From: a virus
DNA length: 32,033 nt
IMG/VR virus record: IMGVR_UViG_3300023198_001368
Span: 122-32,154 of that record
Reading direction: 5' to 3' (one strand)
Shown: one piece after another, positions 7,071-24,319 of the stretch
Layout: each line of letters opens with the position of its first letter
Numbering within the stretch: the stretch's first letter is position 1
Translations under genes and position numbers: made by a program
The notes under the pieces: generated by a model
What the model was told of the DNA's origin: nothing
The model's input: only the letters and a program-made list of their open reading frames with translations
Database searches by the model: none

Positions 7071-8846
7071 CTAGTGCAGGATGAAGGTTCCGGGTGCGCC
7101 CCCTGGTGCGCTGCTTCCTAGTTCAGACAAGCCCAGTTCGAGGTGGTCTATCGTCGCCGGCGGGGTGTCATCCAGCACGCCGAGCAGATGGGTGTGGGCC
7201 GGCTTCATGTACTCAGCAATCGAGGTGATGCGCTCGCGCTGCTCGTCCGTCAGGATGCCAGGGGCCAGCACGCGGAAGGAGTACAGACCGTCGCGAGACG
7301 GGCCCAGCGAGACGGGGGACACCGGCGCCTCGACACCTGGCGCGCTCAGCTCGTCGCCCACGAGCCCCGGATGCACCGGGCCCAGTGCGTCCAGGTCTGG
7401 CGTGTCCGGGTTGCCCAGTTCCCAGCCCTCGCCGTTGAACACTTCGATGGTGACCTCGATGCCTACGAAGAATCGCACGACGTCGATAATCCCGACGCCG
7501 GTTCCCTTGAGCTTGTAGATGTCCACCAGCACACGGACCAGGCGGCGCTTGTCCGTCTCGTTCAAAACGAACTCGACAAAGGGGTTGCCCAACCCGACCA
7601 GCATGGCATCGACAAACTGTTCGGGCGCCGTGTCCACGTCGAGTATGTAGCCCCACTCGTCCACGCTGCAGAGCAGGAGGTTGGTGACCTCCTGCACGAT
7701 GCCCAGTGTGGCGCGAAGCTCGCCACTGGCATCTTCGGACTTGTTCATGTTGGGGATGAAGTCAGCCACGCGGAAGCGCCGGCCTGCCGGGTAGGGTGGA
7801 GTGAACGCATCGAACGTGGAGTCGTTGGCGGGCGCGACGAAGGCGTTGCCCGCTTCATCCACCACGTTCGCCACGACCAGCAGGTACGGTGCACCAAAGG
7901 TCAGCTCGATGTCGGTGGTCACGTCCACCGTCACGGCGTTCACCTGCACCACGCTCACCGCTACCACCTCCACCGCTGGGCGCGACTGCCGCTCGAACAA
8001 ATAGTTCGCGGGGTTCAACGCATCGCTGGTGTCGGCAGCGTTCGCCATGCGCACCGGTTCCGAGTACGTGATGCGCAGCAGCTTCTTCCCGCGGGCGAGC
8101 ACGCTGTCGATCAACGGCGGTGTCAGGTCCAGTGCACGGAAGGTCCACGTCTCGTCCGTGCTGAGCGACGCCGACTGGAAGTTGGCGGTCACCGTAGCGC
8201 TGTCGGTGTAGGCCGCCGGTGGAGTGGCGGTGAACTGCTTGACGTAGGTGCTCGCGTTCACCACCGCGCCAGTCCACCCGTTCTGCCAACCGCCACCGCT
8301 AGACCAAGCGAGCACGGTGTCGACGCGTAGCTCCATGTCGGTGGGCCAGAGTGCGGGGCCCTGGTGGAAGACCTCGAAGTAGACGTCCTGCGTGTAGAGC
8401 ACACCGCGCTCAGTCGGCGTCGGGTTGCGGTTGAACACTTCAAGCTGTTCGGTGGCAGCCACCCCGACGAGGGTGGCGTAGCTCCAACCGAAGATGGTGT
8501 TCGCATCCGGTGGCCCAGAAACCGGAACGCACTTCACGGTAGACGTTGCGCCAAACGAGTCAGACTGGATGCGCACCGTGCCACTCACTGCCGTCGCAGT
8601 GCCGTCTGGCCACTGCGAGTTGATGGCGGCGGCTACCTCGACCGCGGTCGCTTGGGACAGGTCCGCAAACTGCGGGTCGGTCAGGTTGATGGTGGTCGGA
8701 CCACCGTCTGCCTCTAGCTGCATCGACACCGATGGCGTCAGGTCAAACGGCTCAGACTCCGTACCGTCAATCGTGCCGTGCGTGGCGTCGAACACCTGTT
8801 CGACAATGCCGTCAAGCTGCACACTGGGCAGACCCAGTTCAGTCAC
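7071..8846 (-). CDS. gpI-like baseplate wedge protein with N-terminal beta module and Ig-like insertion, 591 aa
   Basis: Residues about 33-125 form a beta module (ADGGPTTINLTDPQF, ATAVEVAAAINSQW, GTVRIQSDSFG) also present in the sheath of this phage. The middle carries an Ig-like SbsA/Big_5-style domain (GKKLLRITYSEPVRMANA...NPANYLFER). The C-terminal part has VDIYKLKGTGVGIIDVVRFF and LTDEQRERITSIAEYMKPAHTH, which match the remembered P2 gpI/TIGR01634 tail protein pattern (KGT followed by a C-terminal PAHT motif). gpI proteins build the baseplate wedge with gpJ and link to tail fibres. Its start overlaps the preceding gene (ATGA). It is much longer than classical gpI (about 180 aa) because of the added beta domains. 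Confidence 0.75.
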   Translation of the reverse strand: MTELGLPSVQLDGIVEQVFDATHGTIDGTESEPFDLTPSVSMQLEADGGPTTINLTDPQFADLSQATAVEVAAAINSQWPDGTATAVSGTVRIQSDSFGATSTVKCVPVSGPPDANTIFGWSYATLVGVAATEQLEVFNRNPTPTERGVLYTQDVYFEVFHQGPALWPTDMELRVDTVLAWSSGGGWQNGWTGAVVNASTYVKQFTATPPAAYTDSATVTANFQSASLSTDETWTFRALDLTPPLIDSVLARGKKLLRITYSEPVRMANAADTSDALNPANYLFERQSRPAVEVVAVSVVQVNAVTVDVTTDIELTFGAPYLLVVANVVDEAGNAFVAPANDSTFDAFTPPYPAGRRFRVADFIPNMNKSEDASGELRATLGIVQEVTNLLLCSVDEWGYILDVDTAPEQFVDAMLVGLGNPFVEFVLNETDKRRLVRVLVDIYKLKGTGVGIIDVVRFFVGIEVTIEVFNGEGWELGNPDTPDLDALGPVHPGLVGDELSAPGVEAPVSPVSLGPSRDGLYSFRVLAPGILTDEQRERITSIAEYMKPAHTHLLGVLDDTPPATIDHLELGLSELGSSAPGGAPGTFILH

Positions 8847-9238
8847 GACGTCACCTCCAACCGGTACGCAATCACATCAGTCCCCGGCGGCCCGCTGGCG
8901 CCGTCGAGTGGGATGGCCAGGTCTTCTATCTCAATCGTGCGCGCCCCCCTCTTGATCTCGCGGCTGGCGAACACCGCCCCGTTCAACCGCATGGTGAACA
9001 GCCAGCCGTGACCCGCGGGGATGACAGGTGGCGCAGCGAAGCGAACACTGGCGCGCATGAGCCGTGCCGCACCATCCAGCGTCACCGTCTGCTGCACCTC
9101 GTGGTAGTCACCCACCGCCAGGTTCCGCTTCGCGTGCAAGGCATGGCCCAGCTCGAACACGTACGCCCCCTCGGGCGCGTCAGCCGTAGCGATGCGTCCT
9201 TGGTGCGTGCCGAGATCTTGTTCCCACGGGCTCGCCAT
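8843..9238 (-). CDS. Small beta-rich tail-associated protein, 131 aa
   Basis: The protein has alternating hydrophobic strands (EVQQTVTLDGAARLMRASVRF, GHGWLFTMRLNGAVFASREI, RTIEIEDLAIPL) and ends VIAYRLEVTS, consistent with a jelly-roll or beta-sandwich. There is no signal, helix bundle or catalytic motif. It overlaps the gpI-like gene by four bases (ATGA) and follows the LamG-like gene by 8 bases, so it is translated with baseplate genes. The strand pattern (damage- or ligand-free 'x-W-x-F-x-x-x-x-N-G') resembles carbohydrate-binding sandwiches, but this is only suggestive. Likely a baseplate decoration or fibre-attachment protein. Confidence 0.65.
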   Translation of the reverse strand: MASPWEQDLGTHQGRIATADAPEGAYVFELGHALHAKRNLAVGDYHEVQQTVTLDGAARLMRASVRFAAPPVIPAGHGWLFTMRLNGAVFASREIKRGARTIEIEDLAIPLDGASGPPGTDVIAYRLEVTS

Positions 9239-9246
9239 CGTTCATC

Positions 9247-9978
9247 CTACAGCTGTCGCGCGATCTCCAGGTGGTCAAAAAACGCACGTCGCGTCACGTC
9301 CTGCACCAGCGCGCCGAAGCCTCCACGTCCACTGGTGAACGGGGCGCTGCCAGTGTTGACGCCCAAGACGTCATCCACAAAGCCCGACACCAAAGGACTA
9401 CTCGGTCCCTCCATCCCTGGCACGACCACCCATACCGGGGCCGACACCGGGTTGACCGTCAGGTCGTTCTGGAAACACTGCAGGATGACGTCACCCGTGC
9501 CTTGCACGATCATGTCGAGCCGCAGATGCAGCCAGGTGTCTGGCTCGTACGTGTCGCTGGACCGCATGAGAATGTTCGGGCTGATGGCAGGGTCCACCAC
9601 GCTATCCGGCAAGCCACCGGTGAGCGCACCCTTGCGAAGCGCGATGCGGTGCGGGTCGCCATCGGACAGCCCGAGGATGTAGCCGCTGTCAGCGGTAGCC
9701 GTACCGCCGAGGCCGGCAAAGAGGAACGGTGCGAAGCCGGTAGGCGAACCGGAGATGCCACGCTTCACCGCACCGCGCACGCTGCCTCCCTTCGCCATCG
9801 GTGCGAAGTCCACCTGATTGTTCGACAGCGCAACGACGGCGTCGACAATCTCCACGGAGTTGACACCGTAGGTGAACACCTCCCCACCGTTGGGCGGGGT
9901 GATGCCAGCAGTCGCGCCACGCTTGACCTCACTCACAGCGGGTGCGCCAGTCAGCTCTGTCCAGTCTGCTTCAGCCAT
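9247..9978 (-). CDS. Concanavalin/LamG-like tail-associated protein, 243 aa
   Basis: After an N-terminal WTELTGAPAVSEVKRGATAGI segment, the body shows the strand order of a lectin-like sandwich: GGEVFTYGVNSVEIVDAVVAL, then SGYILGLSDGDPHRIALRKG, then DTYEPDTWLHLRLDMIVQG, then GDVILQCFQND, ending FFDHLEIARQL. The 'WLHLRLDMI...G...I.....ND' stretch is characteristic of LamG/ConA-like folds that bind glycans. It sits among baseplate genes, between two other beta-rich genes. Expected role: a virion surface or baseplate component that touches host polysaccharide. The fold is a judgement by eye; ligand unknown. Confidence 0.65.
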   Translation of the reverse strand: MAEADWTELTGAPAVSEVKRGATAGITPPNGGEVFTYGVNSVEIVDAVVALSNNQVDFAPMAKGGSVRGAVKRGISGSPTGFAPFLFAGLGGTATADSGYILGLSDGDPHRIALRKGALTGGLPDSVVDPAISPNILMRSSDTYEPDTWLHLRLDMIVQGTGDVILQCFQNDLTVNPVSAPVWVVVPGMEGPSSPLVSGFVDDVLGVNTGSAPFTSGRGGFGALVQDVTRRAFFDHLEIARQL

Positions 9979-9987
9979 CTCGATCTC

Positions 9988-10962
9988 CTACAGGTCCGAC
10001 AGGCTCACCCAATGGGTCAGCCGTGAGCGTGCGATGTAAAACTCTCCGCCACCCTTCGCGGTGAGCGGGATGTCTGTTCCGCCAGGGCCAACAGCGACGC
10101 CGCCGATGTAGGTGGCGCTGATGGTCCCGGTCACGTAGTACGTCTGGTCGTAACGGAGCGGAGTGGGGAGACGCGGAAGCTCCGCGCTACGGTCATCCGT
10201 GGACGGCACGCCAGCCGCGGTCAGGAACTCCACGTCGTTGTCCACCTGCAACGGCGCCGCACTGTAGTCCGCGAAGATTTGGTAGGTGGACAGGTTCACG
10301 TCAGTAATGCGGAAGCGGGTGGCAACGAGCTTGATGTTCTCGTACTCGAACGTTCCGCCGCCAACCGTACCGACGAACACCGCCTTGTCCACGCCCGGAC
10401 CGGCGACAACCTCGCCCCACGACCAGAACCATGTGTCGTCGAGAGGGTCGTTGCGCCAGCCGAACTCGAAAGTCTCGTACGGATACTCGTCGCCGGGTGG
10501 CGCAGCGGGCCAGAAGTTTGCACCCTCCAGGTCAGCGGCCTCGAAGTCGAGCGGCGCGGTGCTCCACCAGAAGCGTTCGTACGTGAAGCCGCCGAACGTC
10601 GCCGCCTCCTGGTAGACCAGCACGGGGATGCTCTGCGCCGTGCCCAGTGGCGGGCCGCCCTCGCTAGGCGGGCGCTCCCACTGGCGCGCGAAGTTCTCGA
10701 ACAGCTGGGGTGTCGAGCCCGCGTTGAACACTGCCCCGTTCGCCAACGTCTCGTCTGGCAGTGCCGTGACCAGCTGGTCCTCGTCGGGCCAACCGTACTC
10801 GAACATCTCCCGGCCGAAGCCCTCGAACCCCGTAGGCACGTCGACCGCGAACTGCGCCCAGTCGTACAGACTGGTCTGTACGCTGGTGCTCCAGTCGGCG
10901 GGCAGACCAGGGCCAGCCGGGTCGGCTGCCTTGGTCTCGAAGCCGGGGTTCAGTACGCTCAT
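9988..10962 (-). CDS. Baseplate-associated protein with NPGFE-type start and FE-GW motifs, 324 aa
   Basis: It begins MSVLNPGFETKAADPAGPGLPADW, a start typical of carbohydrate-binding beta-sandwich modules ('NPGFE...P..W'). Acidic aromatic motifs recur: FEGFGREMFEYGWPDED (about 46-61), QLFENFARQWERPP (about 87-99) and YETFEFGWRNDP (about 162-173). The last 100 residues are beta-rich (LRYDQTYYVTGTISATYIGG) and end THWVSLSDL. The gene overlaps gpJ by four bases (ATGA) and precedes the LamG-like gene. The repeated FE-GW units may be short docking motifs or a scaffold for baseplate partners. I cannot assign a family; structural role is inferred from position. Confidence 0.7.
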   Translation of the reverse strand: MSVLNPGFETKAADPAGPGLPADWSTSVQTSLYDWAQFAVDVPTGFEGFGREMFEYGWPDEDQLVTALPDETLANGAVFNAGSTPQLFENFARQWERPPSEGGPPLGTAQSIPVLVYQEAATFGGFTYERFWWSTAPLDFEAADLEGANFWPAAPPGDEYPYETFEFGWRNDPLDDTWFWSWGEVVAGPGVDKAVFVGTVGGGTFEYENIKLVATRFRITDVNLSTYQIFADYSAAPLQVDNDVEFLTAAGVPSTDDRSAELPRLPTPLRYDQTYYVTGTISATYIGGVAVGPGGTDIPLTAKGGGEFYIARSRLTHWVSLSDL

Positions 10963-12464
10963 CCGGTGTAGTTCACGAGCACGAGACCCGTGTCCCCATT
11001 GTAGATAGTGACGTACCGCAAGACCGGGAAGTTATGCGGCGGCACGACGAGGTCGTTGGCCTCGTTGTTGACCTGCACCGCGCCAGGCGTGTCCGCCATC
11101 TTGCGCACACCGGTCGTGTCGCGAATGACATTGTAGATGTCGCTAAACGCCACCTCGTTGTCGATCTGGTAGCCGAACCCGATGTCGGGGTTGGGTGCAC
11201 CCTCGGGCGTGTTCAGCGCGAAGAAGTAGAGCAGGTTGGTCCGTATCTCGTTGTCGACGTCCTCCGGCACAGCACCGTCTGCCAGGAAGACCATGCACAC
11301 CACGTCCACGTAGAGCAGGATGGGGTCGAGCACCTGCACCAGGAAGGTGAGGGTGTTCGGGTACGTCACCGTGACCATGGTGAACACGGCATCCTTCAAC
11401 GCTTGCGTTGGCACACCGCCACCGGTGGGCACGATGTAGAGTTCGCCCTGGTTCTCCAGCACGCCCTCCTTCTCGTTCGACGTGGCCATGAACGCACGCT
11501 CCACACCAGGGACGCGCAGCGCGTTCGTCTCGTAGTCTTCGCGCGCGACCGTGCGGTTGAGAGTGCGCAGGCTGCGCGGCGCGAGTACGCGGATAGCCTC
11601 CACGCTCTCGCGGTCATCGCCGCCACTGGCCTTCGTACTGTTCGTCACCGTCACCGTCTGCGGGTTGCCGAAGGAGTCGGTGTAGGCGCGGTCGGCCCTG
11701 GCGATAGTGCCAGGGAGCACGTTCCCCAACGTCCCTCCGCCGACCTTATAGATGGCGCTGATGGTGCCACTGGGGATGGCGCCGTTCACACCGTTGCCGA
11801 ACCGAATGGTGGCGCGGTTGTTCTCGTCCACGGTCACGGTGTAGTGGCGGTCGGTGGCGGTGCTATCGAGAAAGTCGTCCACCACGGAGTAGGCGCCATT
11901 GCTCGCCACCACGTCGCTCGACCCACTGAGAAACGGGTCGTGAAGGAGCTGGTACTCCTGGTTCGGCGTGTCGTCGCTCTGCAACACCTCGTCCCGCCGC
12001 TCGCTGTGCTCCACCGTGAAGATCACGCTGGGCGGAGTGGCGCCCGCCGCAATCACCACGTCGGCCAACGCCTGGAACACCAGCGGGTCGGTCACCTCCA
12101 GTGTGCGGAACGCGTCCTGCGCCTGGATGGTGACGGTGCCCACCGGAGGCGCAGCCAGCGTGAAAGTCAACTCGGCCGTGGCCGCGACGTTGCCTGATGG
12201 GACGTAGCCGAGGAGCTTGGCGAGCGCGAGCATGCTGCGCCGAAGCTGCGCGTTACCGATGAACGCCTCACGCGCCTGATTGTCTTGGTAGTAGAGCAGC
12301 ACGTCGCCCACGAAGGCGAACAGCTCCATCATAATGTTGCCGAAGTTGGCAACGTTGAAGTCCGTCCATTCTGGGAAGGCACCGCGGATGAGGTTGATCA
12401 GCCGCGCGCGCAGACTGTCGAAGTCCTTGTCGGTGTAGTCTAGGTTCTCGCCCAGCAGTGCCAT
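10959..12464 (-). CDS. Baseplate J / gp6-like wedge protein, 501 aa
   Basis: The N-terminus LDYTDKDFDSLRARLINLI, followed by FNVANFGNIMMELFAFVGDVLLYYQDNQAREAF, is the classic start of baseplate J/gp6/gp47 proteins. The centre contains RATIRFGNGVNGAIPSGT, the conserved 'FGDGxxGxxPxxG' segment, and RTLNRTVAREDYETNALRVPGV. The C-terminal half is beta/alpha with repeated strands. Together with gp25 and gpI this forms the wedge ring that surrounds the hub and triggers sheath contraction. Its stop-start overlaps with neighbours (TGATG before, ATGA after) fit a baseplate operon. Length is in the normal range for this family. Confidence 0.88.
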   Translation of the reverse strand: MALLGENLDYTDKDFDSLRARLINLIRGAFPEWTDFNVANFGNIMMELFAFVGDVLLYYQDNQAREAFIGNAQLRRSMLALAKLLGYVPSGNVAATAELTFTLAAPPVGTVTIQAQDAFRTLEVTDPLVFQALADVVIAAGATPPSVIFTVEHSERRDEVLQSDDTPNQEYQLLHDPFLSGSSDVVASNGAYSVVDDFLDSTATDRHYTVTVDENNRATIRFGNGVNGAIPSGTISAIYKVGGGTLGNVLPGTIARADRAYTDSFGNPQTVTVTNSTKASGGDDRESVEAIRVLAPRSLRTLNRTVAREDYETNALRVPGVERAFMATSNEKEGVLENQGELYIVPTGGGVPTQALKDAVFTMVTVTYPNTLTFLVQVLDPILLYVDVVCMVFLADGAVPEDVDNEIRTNLLYFFALNTPEGAPNPDIGFGYQIDNEVAFSDIYNVIRDTTGVRKMADTPGAVQVNNEANDLVVPPHNFPVLRYVTIYNGDTGLVLVNYTG

Positions 12465-12997
12465 CAGCTAGTGCCTCCGAGGTTGACGACCGTCTCCAGG
12501 TCGCCCGCGAGCACGGTGTTGTCGCCGCTGTTCTCGTCAACCAGTTCGTACTTCACGCGGATGCCCAGGACGTTCAGCTTGCCACCGGTCGGCGCGCTGG
12601 TGCGGAAGAGACTGACGGCGTTGATACGGATGCGCGGCTCCCACCGGCGCAGCGCGTCGGCCACGAAGCGCCGTGCCTGCTCGACCAGCGCTTGCGAGTT
12701 GAGACGCTGGCGCAGAAGGTAGAGCTTGCTGCCGAACGCGGTGCGCCAGGGTAGCTCGCCGGAAGCGAACTCGCTGTCGCTGGAGGTGCCGAGCACCTGG
12801 CCGACGCATGCCGCGACCAGTCGGGCGCCCGAGGCGTTGGCGAAGTCCACCTTCTGGTCCCTGGTGAACGGACGCAGGATGCCACGGCCCGTGAACGACA
12901 GGCTGGTAGCTTGCGCGATACCCGGGTCGGCGGGCGCCGAGACAGGTATGCTCGGCGTCCACGGGTCCGTCAGCAGGGGCCAGTCGGCAGTTCCCAT
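12464..12997 (-). CDS. gp25-like baseplate wedge protein, 177 aa
   Basis: The ATG at 12997 overlaps the previous TGA by one base. Residues about 80-120 (LPWRTAFGSKLYLLRQRLNSQALVEQARRFVADALRRWEPRIRI) match the GPW/gp25 family pattern, in which 'TxxGxx...' is followed by a long helix and '..WEPRI.I...' . The end VKYELVDENSGDNTVL is also typical. An N-terminal extension of about 60 residues (TDPWTPSIPV, GRGILRPFTRDQKVDFA) precedes the core; the last part resembles the usual 'G.G...P......D' start. gp25 starts sheath polymerisation at the baseplate. It sits between gpJ and an Ig-like gene, as in other contractile tails. Confidence 0.85.
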   Translation of the reverse strand: MGTADWPLLTDPWTPSIPVSAPADPGIAQATSLSFTGRGILRPFTRDQKVDFANASGARLVAACVGQVLGTSSDSEFASGELPWRTAFGSKLYLLRQRLNSQALVEQARRFVADALRRWEPRIRINAVSLFRTSAPTGGKLNVLGIRVKYELVDENSGDNTVLAGDLETVVNLGGTS

Positions 12998-20987: not shown

Positions 20988-23345
20988 TCACTCGTCAAAA
21001 CCAGGCGGGGTCGGCAGGCCGCCCCGGTTGCGCTGGTTCTGCTGGATGTTGGAGAGCATGTTGAACATGGCCTCGCCGTTGGCGTCGCCTTCGAGCCGGA
21101 TGGGTGTGCCGGCCAATGCGCGCGACATGCCAGCAGCAGTCCCGTTCTCAATGTCAGAGCGCGTGATGGCGGCCACTCCACCAGCGCCGGTCGTGCCGCC
21201 GACGTACGACTCGGACGGATAGTATTGCGTTCCCGATACCGCGGGGCCGCCCATCCCAACCTTCCCAATCTCAGCACGCCGCTTCGCGATCTCGTTGGCG
21301 TCGGCGTCCAGCATGTCAGCCAGGCCAGGACCCCACTCGAAGTCGCCGCCGGCCTGGCCCATCGTCATCACCCACTGCAGCGCTTCGCCTACGTTCTTCA
21401 GCAGGTTCCAGAGCTGCTGCAAAGACCAGGAGACGCTGGTGACTGCAACGCCGAAGACTTCCTTAATCCACAACCCCGCCTTGATGAAGCCGCTGGCTAC
21501 CATCAGCGTCCAACGCAACGTCTCAGCAAGCCACCCGACGAGCGTGGCCAGCAGCCCGCCGAGACCAGCGCCGCGCGCCTTCATGCCATCCATCCCCGCG
21601 CCGCTCTCGGCAAACATGATGGTCACTTCGCCTATCACGGCCATGAACTCGTCAAATGCCGTGGTGAGCTGCTTGAAGGTTGGCGCCAACGCCTCGACGC
21701 CACGCTGCCAACCCATGACGAGACCGGCCCAGAACTGCTTCGCGACCTGCACGATGTGGCCGACCGCCTGCACGAAGCCGAGCAGACCCATGTTCCGCAG
21801 CATCACCTCGGTCGTAAACGACAGGCCCTCGCCGGACAGGACTTGCTGCAGCCCCTCCCATACCGTCGCCACCTTCTCCTTCAGGTTCTCGAACCAGTCG
21901 CCCATCCCTCCCCAATTGTTCTTGATGGCCATCCACGCCGCGACAGCGAGCGCGGCCACACCCACGAAGACCAGGCCCAGCGCGAGCATCGCACCAGCAG
22001 CAATGAGCGCCACCTTCGCCATGATGAGCAGGAAGGGAGCCAGCAGCATGAAGATCAGCGTGAGCGCGGTGGCCGAGCCAACCACGAACAGCAAGATGGA
22101 GCCGAAGAGCATGGCGGCCCCAATGGCTGTCTTCACACCAGCAGGCAACCGCGACCACACGCCGATGAGCGCGTTGACCAGGCCAATCACCACGGTCACA
22201 ATCGGCTTGAAGATCTTGGCGAAGGGCTGGCCCAACTCCACCGCGAGCGTTTCGAGGGAACCGCGCAGCAGCGTCTTCTGCCCCTCGAAGGTGTCGAGCA
22301 GCGCTTCCTTAAACTCCTCGGCCGCGCCTTTGGCTCCTGCCATTGCTTCGCGCAAGAAGTTGACGGCATCTGCACCCTTCAGCAGATTGCCCTCGGTGTC
22401 GCGAATACCCTTTCCGGTTTGCGACGAGATGGCGGAGAAGGCGGTGACGCCGAAGCGGCCAAACATAGCGACCGCCTTCTTGGCGCGCATCGCAGCGTTC
22501 GGGAACTTCTCCCCGAGAGCCTCCTTCGTCTCCAGAACGATGTCCATAAACGGCTTGAACTTGCCCGACGCGTCAGTCACCTCAACGCCGACGTCCTTAA
22601 ACCGCTTCGCGTTCTTGGCCATGAACATCAGCGCCGACGACACGGATGACGAGGCCACGCTGGCCTCGACGCCGCTGTTCCGCACCAGGCCGATGCTCGG
22701 CAGCATCTCGTCCATCGACTGCTTGGTCAGCCCCACGCCTCGGCCGAGGTTGCCGATGGCCAGTGTCATCTCGTTCGCCTGCAGAGCGGTGCGGTTGGTG
22801 ATGCGCAGGAGCTTGTCGGCAGCGAAGCCGGCCTGGTCCGCGTCCATCCCGAACACGCGCAAGCTGGACGCCATGGTCTGCGCCGCGTCCGACACCGGGA
22901 TGGCGCCACCGGCGGCCAGGTCGAGCGCACCGGTGAGCGCGGTGGCCGACTCGGCAGCGTTGAAGCCCTGGACCGCCAGGGAGCGCAGCCCCAGGACGGC
23001 CTCCTGGGGAGAGAACTGGGTCTCGATGCCGGCCTTGCGCGCAGTAGCGGCCAGCCTCTCCATGTCGTCGGCGCTGGCCTGGCTGATGGCGCCGACAGCG
23101 GCCAGCTCCTTCTCCAGTGTGCCGGCGATATTGGCGAGACTGATGGCGGTGCCGATGCCGGCAACACCGAGAGCGGCGACACCAGCAGCAGCGCCGATGC
23201 CGATGAGACCACCGGCGGCTCCCATGCCAGCCTTCTTCCCCGTGGCGGCCAGCCCCATCATGTTCCGGTTCAGGCCACCGACGACCGCACTGGCGCGGTC
23301 CTTCGCTGTGAAGACGAAGCCCATTCCCAAATTATTGAGCGCCAT
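20988..23345 (-). CDS. Tail tape measure protein, 785 aa
   Basis: The N-terminus is helical and Gly/Ala-rich, as in TIGR01760 tape measures (VFTAKDRASAVVGGLNRNM; LANIAGTLEKELAAVGAIS; QFSPQEAVLGLRSLAVQGFNA; AAQTMASSLRVFGMDA). Around residues 375-475 several very hydrophobic helices follow each other (LFGSILLFVVGSATALTLIF, ALIAAGAMLALGLVFVGVAA). These are commonly used to enter the host membrane during DNA delivery. The C-terminal 120 residues are Gly/Asn/Gln-rich, ending PTPPGFDE. Using the usual rule of about 0.15 nm per residue, the tail is about 115-120 nm long. It follows the chaperone frames by 3 bases. Confidence 0.88.
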   Translation of the reverse strand: MALNNLGMGFVFTAKDRASAVVGGLNRNMMGLAATGKKAGMGAAGGLIGIGAAAGVAALGVAGIGTAISLANIAGTLEKELAAVGAISQASADDMERLAATARKAGIETQFSPQEAVLGLRSLAVQGFNAAESATALTGALDLAAGGAIPVSDAAQTMASSLRVFGMDADQAGFAADKLLRITNRTALQANEMTLAIGNLGRGVGLTKQSMDEMLPSIGLVRNSGVEASVASSSVSSALMFMAKNAKRFKDVGVEVTDASGKFKPFMDIVLETKEALGEKFPNAAMRAKKAVAMFGRFGVTAFSAISSQTGKGIRDTEGNLLKGADAVNFLREAMAGAKGAAEEFKEALLDTFEGQKTLLRGSLETLAVELGQPFAKIFKPIVTVVIGLVNALIGVWSRLPAGVKTAIGAAMLFGSILLFVVGSATALTLIFMLLAPFLLIMAKVALIAAGAMLALGLVFVGVAALAVAAWMAIKNNWGGMGDWFENLKEKVATVWEGLQQVLSGEGLSFTTEVMLRNMGLLGFVQAVGHIVQVAKQFWAGLVMGWQRGVEALAPTFKQLTTAFDEFMAVIGEVTIMFAESGAGMDGMKARGAGLGGLLATLVGWLAETLRWTLMVASGFIKAGLWIKEVFGVAVTSVSWSLQQLWNLLKNVGEALQWVMTMGQAGGDFEWGPGLADMLDADANEIAKRRAEIGKVGMGGPAVSGTQYYPSESYVGGTTGAGGVAAITRSDIENGTAAGMSRALAGTPIRLEGDANGEAMFNMLSNIQQNQRNRGGLPTPPGFDE

Positions 23346-23348
23346 CGT

Positions 23349-23657
23349 CTACCTCTTCCGGTTCGCGCGCTCTATCTGCGCCGCCTCTTTCCGTCGTTGG
23401 TCCGTCAGTCTGTCAAGATACCACTGCAGTTCCCCAAGGTCGAGATTGTCCACGTCGCCCGGGGTCCAGTTCAACCCCGACCCGCCGTGCTGCTGATAAG
23501 TGAGGTGGAAGTAGATTTCCCGCACGTCCTCCAACTCCGGGCAGGGGAGGACGTTGTTGAAGAACAGCCACGGGTCTACTACTCCTTCTTCGCCCGCTGC
23601 ACCGGCATGAAGAAGGCTGGCCCGAAAGGGAGACTCTCCTTCTGGATGTTGCCACAC
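23349..23657 (-). CDS. Tail assembly chaperone, frameshift extension (GT-like second frame)
   Basis: This frame lies in the -1 register relative to the chaperone gene at 23579-24319 and overlaps its end by 79 bases. A GTG at 23657 exists but lacks a Shine-Dalgarno. The likely route of expression is a -1 slip at CCCTTTC (23630-23624), after which 91 residues are added (RASLL...DPWLFFNNVLPCPELEDV...LDRLTDQRRKEAAQIERANRKR), giving a fusion of 323 aa. The added domain is short, mixed helical and ends in a basic helix, which fits the T domain of G/GT chaperones that binds the tape measure. Its position directly before the tape measure is the classical one. Independent translation cannot be excluded. 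Confidence 0.7.
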   Translation of the reverse strand: MWQHPEGESPFRASLLHAGAAGEEGVVDPWLFFNNVLPCPELEDVREIYFHLTYQQHGGSGLNWTPGDVDNLDLGELQWYLDRLTDQRRKEAAQIERANRKR

Positions 23658-24319
23658 TCAGGGCACTGCACTTCGATGGCTGTCTCCACCCCGCAGTCAA
23701 CCGCGTCCATCGCTTGCAGCAGGTCACGGTGTTCGCTCAGCTCCCGGTCATCCAGCCAGGCGACCAGTTCCTTCTGATCCACGCCGTCGACCGAGACGAT
23801 GCGCTGGGCCAACACGCGCATGACGTCGGCGTTGTTCCCCTTGGCGAACTTGGCCCCCTTGCGTTCGTGCCGACCAATGCTCAGCTCGAACTTGACCAGC
23901 GTGTCGTCCATCGTCGCCTCGAAGGGGATGCCCTCCTTAAACCGACGCAGGCTGTCTTCGCTCAGCATGCGCACCGGCAACTCGTCCAGCGACACCTCCC
24001 ACTGGAACGGCTCACCGCAGGCTGGCGCGGTGCACTGGGTCGGGAACGAGTACAGCTCCTCCGGGTAGGTGGCCTGACGTAGCTGGATGAGGATGTGGAA
24101 GCGGTCTCCTGACAGCACATCCAGCCAGGTAGGCGAACCGCTCGCGTCCAGGCGGTACGGCCCGGGGTCGTCCACCTGGAGCCAGCAGGCGTGAAGCAGA
24201 TCATCGAACAGCTCGCCCGACCGTGCCTTGCGACGGTCGGACAGCAGCCGCATCTCCTTCCCCTTGAGACCGCGGATGGTGCCCGTCATTCCCGATGGGC
24301 ACGTTACTGATAGTTTCAT
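23579..24319 (-). CDS. Tail assembly chaperone (G-like first frame, T4 baseplate-protein-like), 246 aa
   Basis: The ATG at 24319 is used. Two Cys pairs flank the body: C96/C101 (CTAPACGEPFQWEVSLDELPVR) and C219/C222 (QCPECGNIQKESLPFGP), together a likely zinc ribbon. The layout (short N-terminal domain, zinc pair, 'LP.R' segment, helical body, second zinc pair, 'LPF') resembles T4 gp26/gp51-type baseplate proteins that sit after the tube gene in many myoviruses. It is inferred to help load or fold the tape measure. It ends with tandem stop codons (TAGTAG), and its last 15 codons hold the slippery site and stem-loop that join it to the second frame. Confidence 0.7.
   Translation of the reverse strand: MKLSVTCPSGMTGTIRGLKGKEMRLLSDRRKARSGELFDDLLHACWLQVDDPGPYRLDASGSPTWLDVLSGDRFHILIQLRQATYPEELYSFPTQCTAPACGEPFQWEVSLDELPVRMLSEDSLRRFKEGIPFEATMDDTLVKFELSIGRHERKGAKFAKGNNADVMRVLAQRIVSVDGVDQKELVAWLDDRELSEHRDLLQAMDAVDCGVETAIEVQCPECGNIQKESLPFGPAFFMPVQRAKKE
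23584..23630 (-). promoter_or_regulatory. Programmed -1 ribosomal frameshift signal
   Basis: On the minus strand the heptamer CCCTTTC (23630-23624) is in the correct register (C CCT TTC in the zero frame; CCC TTT after slipping). A 7-base spacer GGGCCAG leads to a perfect 8-bp stem, CCTTCTTC (23616-23609) and GAAGAAGG (23591-23584), with a 17-base loop. The stop follows 2 bases after the stem. Spacer length, register and the frame gained all agree with known tail-chaperone frameshifting. Confidence 0.75.

Follow-up and report, generated by a model that had tools for sequence, protein, structure and literature searches.

In a 32,033-nucleotide stretch of viral DNA (the window), part of a virus record with a length of 32,154 bases, two overlapping reading frames lie between the tail tube and tape measure genes. 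The locus raises the question of whether these frames are two separate genes or a single tail assembly chaperone (TAC) gene, from which a short and a long protein are made by programmed -1 frameshifting. Judged from sequence comparison, the locus is very probably the TAC gene of a contractile-tailed phage, in which both forms of the chaperone would arise through -1 slippage at the heptamer CCCTTTC.

Gene order and slippery heptamer in the window

The genes on the minus strand of the window were arranged in the order sheath, tube, frame 1, frame 2 and tape measure, which places the two frames in the position of a TAC gene (Table 1). The stop codon of the fusion, TAG (23351-23349), was followed closely by the tape measure ATG at 23345. 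Elsewhere in the window (7071-8846), a 591-aa protein had about 120 residues in common with the sheath family phrog_15814 (1.5e-11) and about 100 residues in common with the window's own sheath, indicating that one domain is common to the sheath and another gene.

Table 1. Features of the chaperone locus and its neighbours, in window coordinates.
Feature	Coordinates	Strand	Evidence
Frame 1 (ATG 24319, stop 23579), short tail assembly chaperone (TAC-N / 'G'), 246 aa, two zinc-ribbon-type cysteine pairs	23579..24319	-	PF12322, phrog_150, AlphaFold, located between the tube and tape measure genes
Slippery heptamer C_CCT_TTC (-1 shift)	23624..23630	-	direct reading; register; conservation in homologous loci
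Frame-2 part gained by the shift: 91-aa 'T' domain and stop	23349..23624	-	phrog_20255 match 8.9e-12; tblastn; hhalign; model
8-bp stem, 17-nt loop, 7 nt 3' of the heptamer; possible local stimulator	23584..23616	-	direct reading
Tape measure protein, 785 aa	20988..23345	-	phrog_1533 1.9e-44; PF10145 1e-25
Tail tube protein (gp19-like), 160 aa	24362..24844	-	PF06841 1.8e-25; phrog_4542 1.5e-38
Tail sheath protein, 759 aa	24860..27139	-	phrog_15814 5.9e-206; phrog_23 1.9e-31

Frame 2 was in the -1 register relative to frame 1, and the heptamer (23630-23624, minus strand) reads C CCT TTC, in the X_XXY_YYZ register. A -1 slip at this site yields a fusion of 323 aa, with 232 residues from frame 1 and 91 from frame 2. 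These coordinates and lengths, which had been put forward in the original prediction, were verified letter by letter. Moreover, CCCTTTC was the only in-register heptamer of the form XXX(AAA/TTT)Z in the 7,571 codon positions of the 19 window genes.

The following account of slippage at this site, of how often it happens and of what the two products do is inferred. Most ribosomes would terminate at 23579 and release the short chaperone of 246 aa (G-type, T4 gp26 family), and a minority would slip by -1 at C_CCT_TTC and produce the 323-aa long form, which would carry a C-terminal helical T-type domain. If the parallel with lambda holds, the tape measure protein would be coated by many short chains and tail tube subunits would be recruited by a few long ones, and both forms would depart before the tail is completed.

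A downstream stimulatory RNA structure is common, but not obligatory, in TAC -1 frameshifts. In the window, direct reading confirmed a perfect 8-bp stem behind the 7-nt spacer GGGCCAG, with the arms CCTTCTTC (23616-23609) and GAAGAAGG (23591-23584) enclosing a loop of 17 nt. The quality of this stem at spacers of 5-9 gave p = 0.02 against dinucleotide shuffles (uncorrected), and the minimum free energy around the signal was ordinary, being no more stable than that of shuffles (z-score about -0.3). The same stem was found in the nearest relative of the window (L003), where it contained two compensatory pairs and was lengthened to 10 bp with a loop still of 17 nt (p = 0.022). Other members of the clade had different stems or none, and the combined p over 18 loci was 0.11. 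The stem was therefore rejected as a conserved element of the signal, since only the window and its nearest relative possess it. It is possibly a local stimulator of the frameshift in the window.

Conservation of the signal and alternative explanations

Homologous loci were collected with the tube and sheath proteins and then read by tblastn. The conservation set consisted of 17 non-identical homologous loci containing the end of frame 1; L002, a weak match without the gene arrangement, was left out. In all 17 loci, a heptamer in the slippage register stood at the equivalent site or close to it, and the -1 frame was open (17/17 for each), so that no homologue lacking both was found. The heptamer was mostly CCCTTTC, and the variants were CCCTTTG (L004 and L025), TTTTTTC (L013), TTTTTTG (L014 and L035), TTTTTTT (L006) and GGGTTTT (L034). 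A homologue of frame 2 was detected by tblastn in 14/17 loci, in the -1 frame every time; among the remaining three, L014 ends at the contig end, and L034 and L035 have a T-like reading frame only. The comparison with homologues hence upheld the heptamer of the original prediction and confined its stem to two loci, and the core of that prediction, a -1 programmed frameshift for chaperones of the G / G-T type, was strongly supported by comparative genomics. Searches with the tape measure protein against viral contigs and with frame 2 against phage records (tblastn) gave no match. The deltaproteobacterial locus L016 differs from the others in having about 4 kb between its tube and chaperone genes (8699-12665).

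The codons at the slip site were informative. The residues encoded there varied (PF, PL, FF, FL and GF), and slipperiness was constant. At other places in these loci, slippery codons encoded the same dipeptides in only 3/444 cases (PF 1/83, FF 2/76, PL 0/285). Slippery codons are thus kept at this site though they are rare elsewhere for the same dipeptides, indicating that the nucleotides, and not the amino acids alone, are under selection.

Frame 2 might instead be a separate small gene with its own start, at GTG 23657 or at an internal GTG (23525-23523), translated by reinitiation or coupling, in which case the heptamer would be incidental. The internal GTG, at residue 34 of the 91-residue tail, is preceded by GGAG 9 nt upstream (window 23538-23523, minus strand); it was missed in the original prediction, and it might allow a protein of about 58 aa, consisting of the T part only, to be made in the window. 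The T domain of cyanophages likewise has its own ATG just past the gp26 stop. However, no start codon in frame 2 was conserved across the clade, and a GTG equivalent to 23525-23523 was not conserved among the homologues. In addition, no Shine-Dalgarno sequence precedes GTG 23657, in agreement with the original prediction, and every homologue maintains the in-register heptamer through codon choices that are rare elsewhere. A separate gene is accordingly considered unlikely. The heptamer as a mere by-product of a conserved Leu-Pro-Phe protein motif is highly improbable: LPF is indeed frequent at the slip site, but this explanation is already contradicted by the variable residues and the 3/444 count given above. 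A single gene split by a sequencing or assembly frameshift can also be dismissed as extremely improbable, for although an indel error can give two overlapping frames at one locus, independent assemblies, viral contigs and bacterial genomes all show the two-frame layout, and its overlap lengths and stops differ between loci. Frameshifting within one TAC gene was therefore retained as the reading of the locus.

Identity of the two protein parts

The frame-1 protein matched the Pfam family PF12322 'T4_baseplate' with 30.5 bits (cut-off 24.5) and phrog_150 with 3.4e-13. Its AlphaFold model had a pLDDT of 92, and the best fold matches of the model were T4-type 'baseplate hub' proteins, the top one being from Bacillus phage SP-15 (E 1.7e-13). 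The model had 66 matches in BFVD at E <= 0.001, many of which were labelled baseplate hub or hub assembly. Sequence and fold searches against the PDB gave no significant match to a solved structure, and the comparison with the HK97 TAC was at chance level (E 7.5), so no likeness to the solved lambda/HK97-type TACs was detectable. T4 gp26 and gp51 are members of PF12322, and they were entered as hub-assembly chaperones in a review (PMC3004832). The name 'T4_baseplate' is therefore misleading, and the frame-1 protein is a T4-type TAC. The resemblance to a T4 baseplate-type protein noticed in the original prediction stands as far as the PF12322 match goes; the family itself includes the hub-assembly chaperones gp26 and gp51. 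Consequently, no boundary between baseplate and chaperone families is blurred here, and the novelty that had been claimed on this point comes down to a problem of naming.

The frame-2 part was predicted to be a small helical domain (pLDDT 76), and most members contained the motif QHGGSGL followed by ERL..QR..EA. A search for structures similar to the T-domain model found none at a significant level. Profile comparison by hhalign, in which each percentage is a single comparison, related the T domain of the window to SP-15-type T domains (95.6%), the latter to the T domains of Rhizobium and jumbo phages (86.8%), and these to cyanophage gp51 (94.7%). Furthermore, the C-terminus of T4 gp51 matched the T domain of cyanophage gp51 (96.7%). 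The direct comparison of the window-clade T domain with T4 gp51 was insignificant (1.5%), and the link passes through the intermediates.

Comparison with known systems and the wider PF12322 family

The -1 frameshift of long-tailed phages was reportedly described as conserved by Xu et al. in 2004. Like lambda G / G-T, the window would have a short and a long product, with -1 slippage shortly before the end of the upstream frame and directly before the tape measure gene. The slippery heptamer of lambda is GGGAAAG, whereas that of the window is CCCTTTC, and frame 1 differs from lambda G in having no detectable likeness to the solved TACs. The G-T frameshift was described as widespread 'except T4' in a 2016 review (PMC5009743). 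Two papers (PMC10885494 and PMC12846349) credit Vladimirov, Gautam and Davidson 2022 (Virology 566:9) with identifying TAC genes in T4-like phages. The former states, citing the same work, that T4-like TACs comprise one short gene and, in some, one long fused gene; the latter reports poly-T slippery sequences in the TAC genes of T4-like phages and an invariant GTTTTT slippery sequence in the TAC of Vandenendeviridae / Andersonviridae. Like the window, these two families possess a myophage TAC whose conserved -1 frame usually appears in annotations as a hypothetical gene of its own; their slippery sequence differs, and the likeness is one of description, proteins aside. Since T4-like TAC genes have already been identified in the literature, the window joins a known kind as a new member, and the point about blurred families is not new.

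Frame 1 falls into one family with the T4-type proteins gp26 and gp51 (PF12322, phrog_150), whose long form likewise adds a C-terminal domain. In T4, the short gp26 and the long gp51 are two separate genes without a frameshift signal. In Aes508, gp26 and gp51 are also separate, and gp26 has no frameshift signal. By comparison, the window has one gene with a -1 signal. The cyanophage-type gp26 and small gp51 resembled the window in having a PF12322-type frame 1, at whose end a heptamer lies in register, and a T domain encoded in the -1 frame. In all 64 distinct cyanophage-type gp26 genes (L049, L059-L138), TTTTTTC lay in register exactly 10 nt upstream of the stop, and the small gp51 T domain followed in the -1 frame. 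The differences from the window were the heptamer TTTTTTC and the ATG of gp51 itself. In the cyanophage-type Sf-FS3, a lysozyme-domain gene, and not directly the tape measure gene, follows the gp26/gp51 pair. RL38J1, IC12, Atu_ph07, PA5oct and a 595-kb phage shared the cyanophage arrangement, with TTTTTTC or TTTTTTG.

In nine PF12322-type loci (L037, L038, L041-L044, L047, L054 and L055, namely SP-15, LIS04, GXN1, immuto, Mel-JY01, LR756508, BRock, LuckySocke and TM30), the downstream T-like frame was +1, not -1. In all nine, the overlap contained a 0-frame TTT codon with C or T as the next base (9/9, with 0.9 expected in total), a pattern that was chosen after the sequences had been viewed. 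By eye, the TTT-Y site matches in most of these loci the position of Phe at the -1 site. The +1 frames would be accounted for by tRNA-Phe slipping by +1 from UUU to UUY, and TTT-Y is a candidate site on the basis of sequence. The sequence xCC_CGA was also considered as the +1 shift site and rejected, because it fits only three phages and TTT-Y fits nine.

Tandem chaperone-family genes with an overlap of a few bases were observed in PaBG (L040:9918-11647) and NCTB (L045:11058-12772). One gene of each pair is short and the other has a C-terminal extension, which looks like the short and long gene solution of T4.

With slightly better than even confidence, the short/long pair of PF12322 may have been reached by three routes. 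One would be slippage by -1, as in the window clade, the cyanophages and several Rhizobium and jumbo phages. In the second, slippage would be +1 at a TTT-Y phenylalanine codon close to the end of frame 1 (the nine phages from SP-15 to TM30, including a 484-kb phage). The third would consist of a duplicated gene in a short and a long version, in T4 and probably in PaBG and NCTB.

The window is a further solid example of a well-known frameshift trick of phages rather than a system of a new kind. It leads to a re-annotation, in which two genes usually labelled 'baseplate hub' and 'hypothetical' become one frameshifted tail chaperone gene. The lineage concerned comprises contractile phages and prophage-like loci, of which several lie in assemblies from deltaproteobacteria and myxobacteria. 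The T4-type chaperone family, formerly a stated exception to the frameshift rule, is tied to relatives that use frameshifting, and a switch of frameshift direction within one family becomes testable. If the reading of three routes is true, the direction of the frameshift has switched during the evolution of one protein family.
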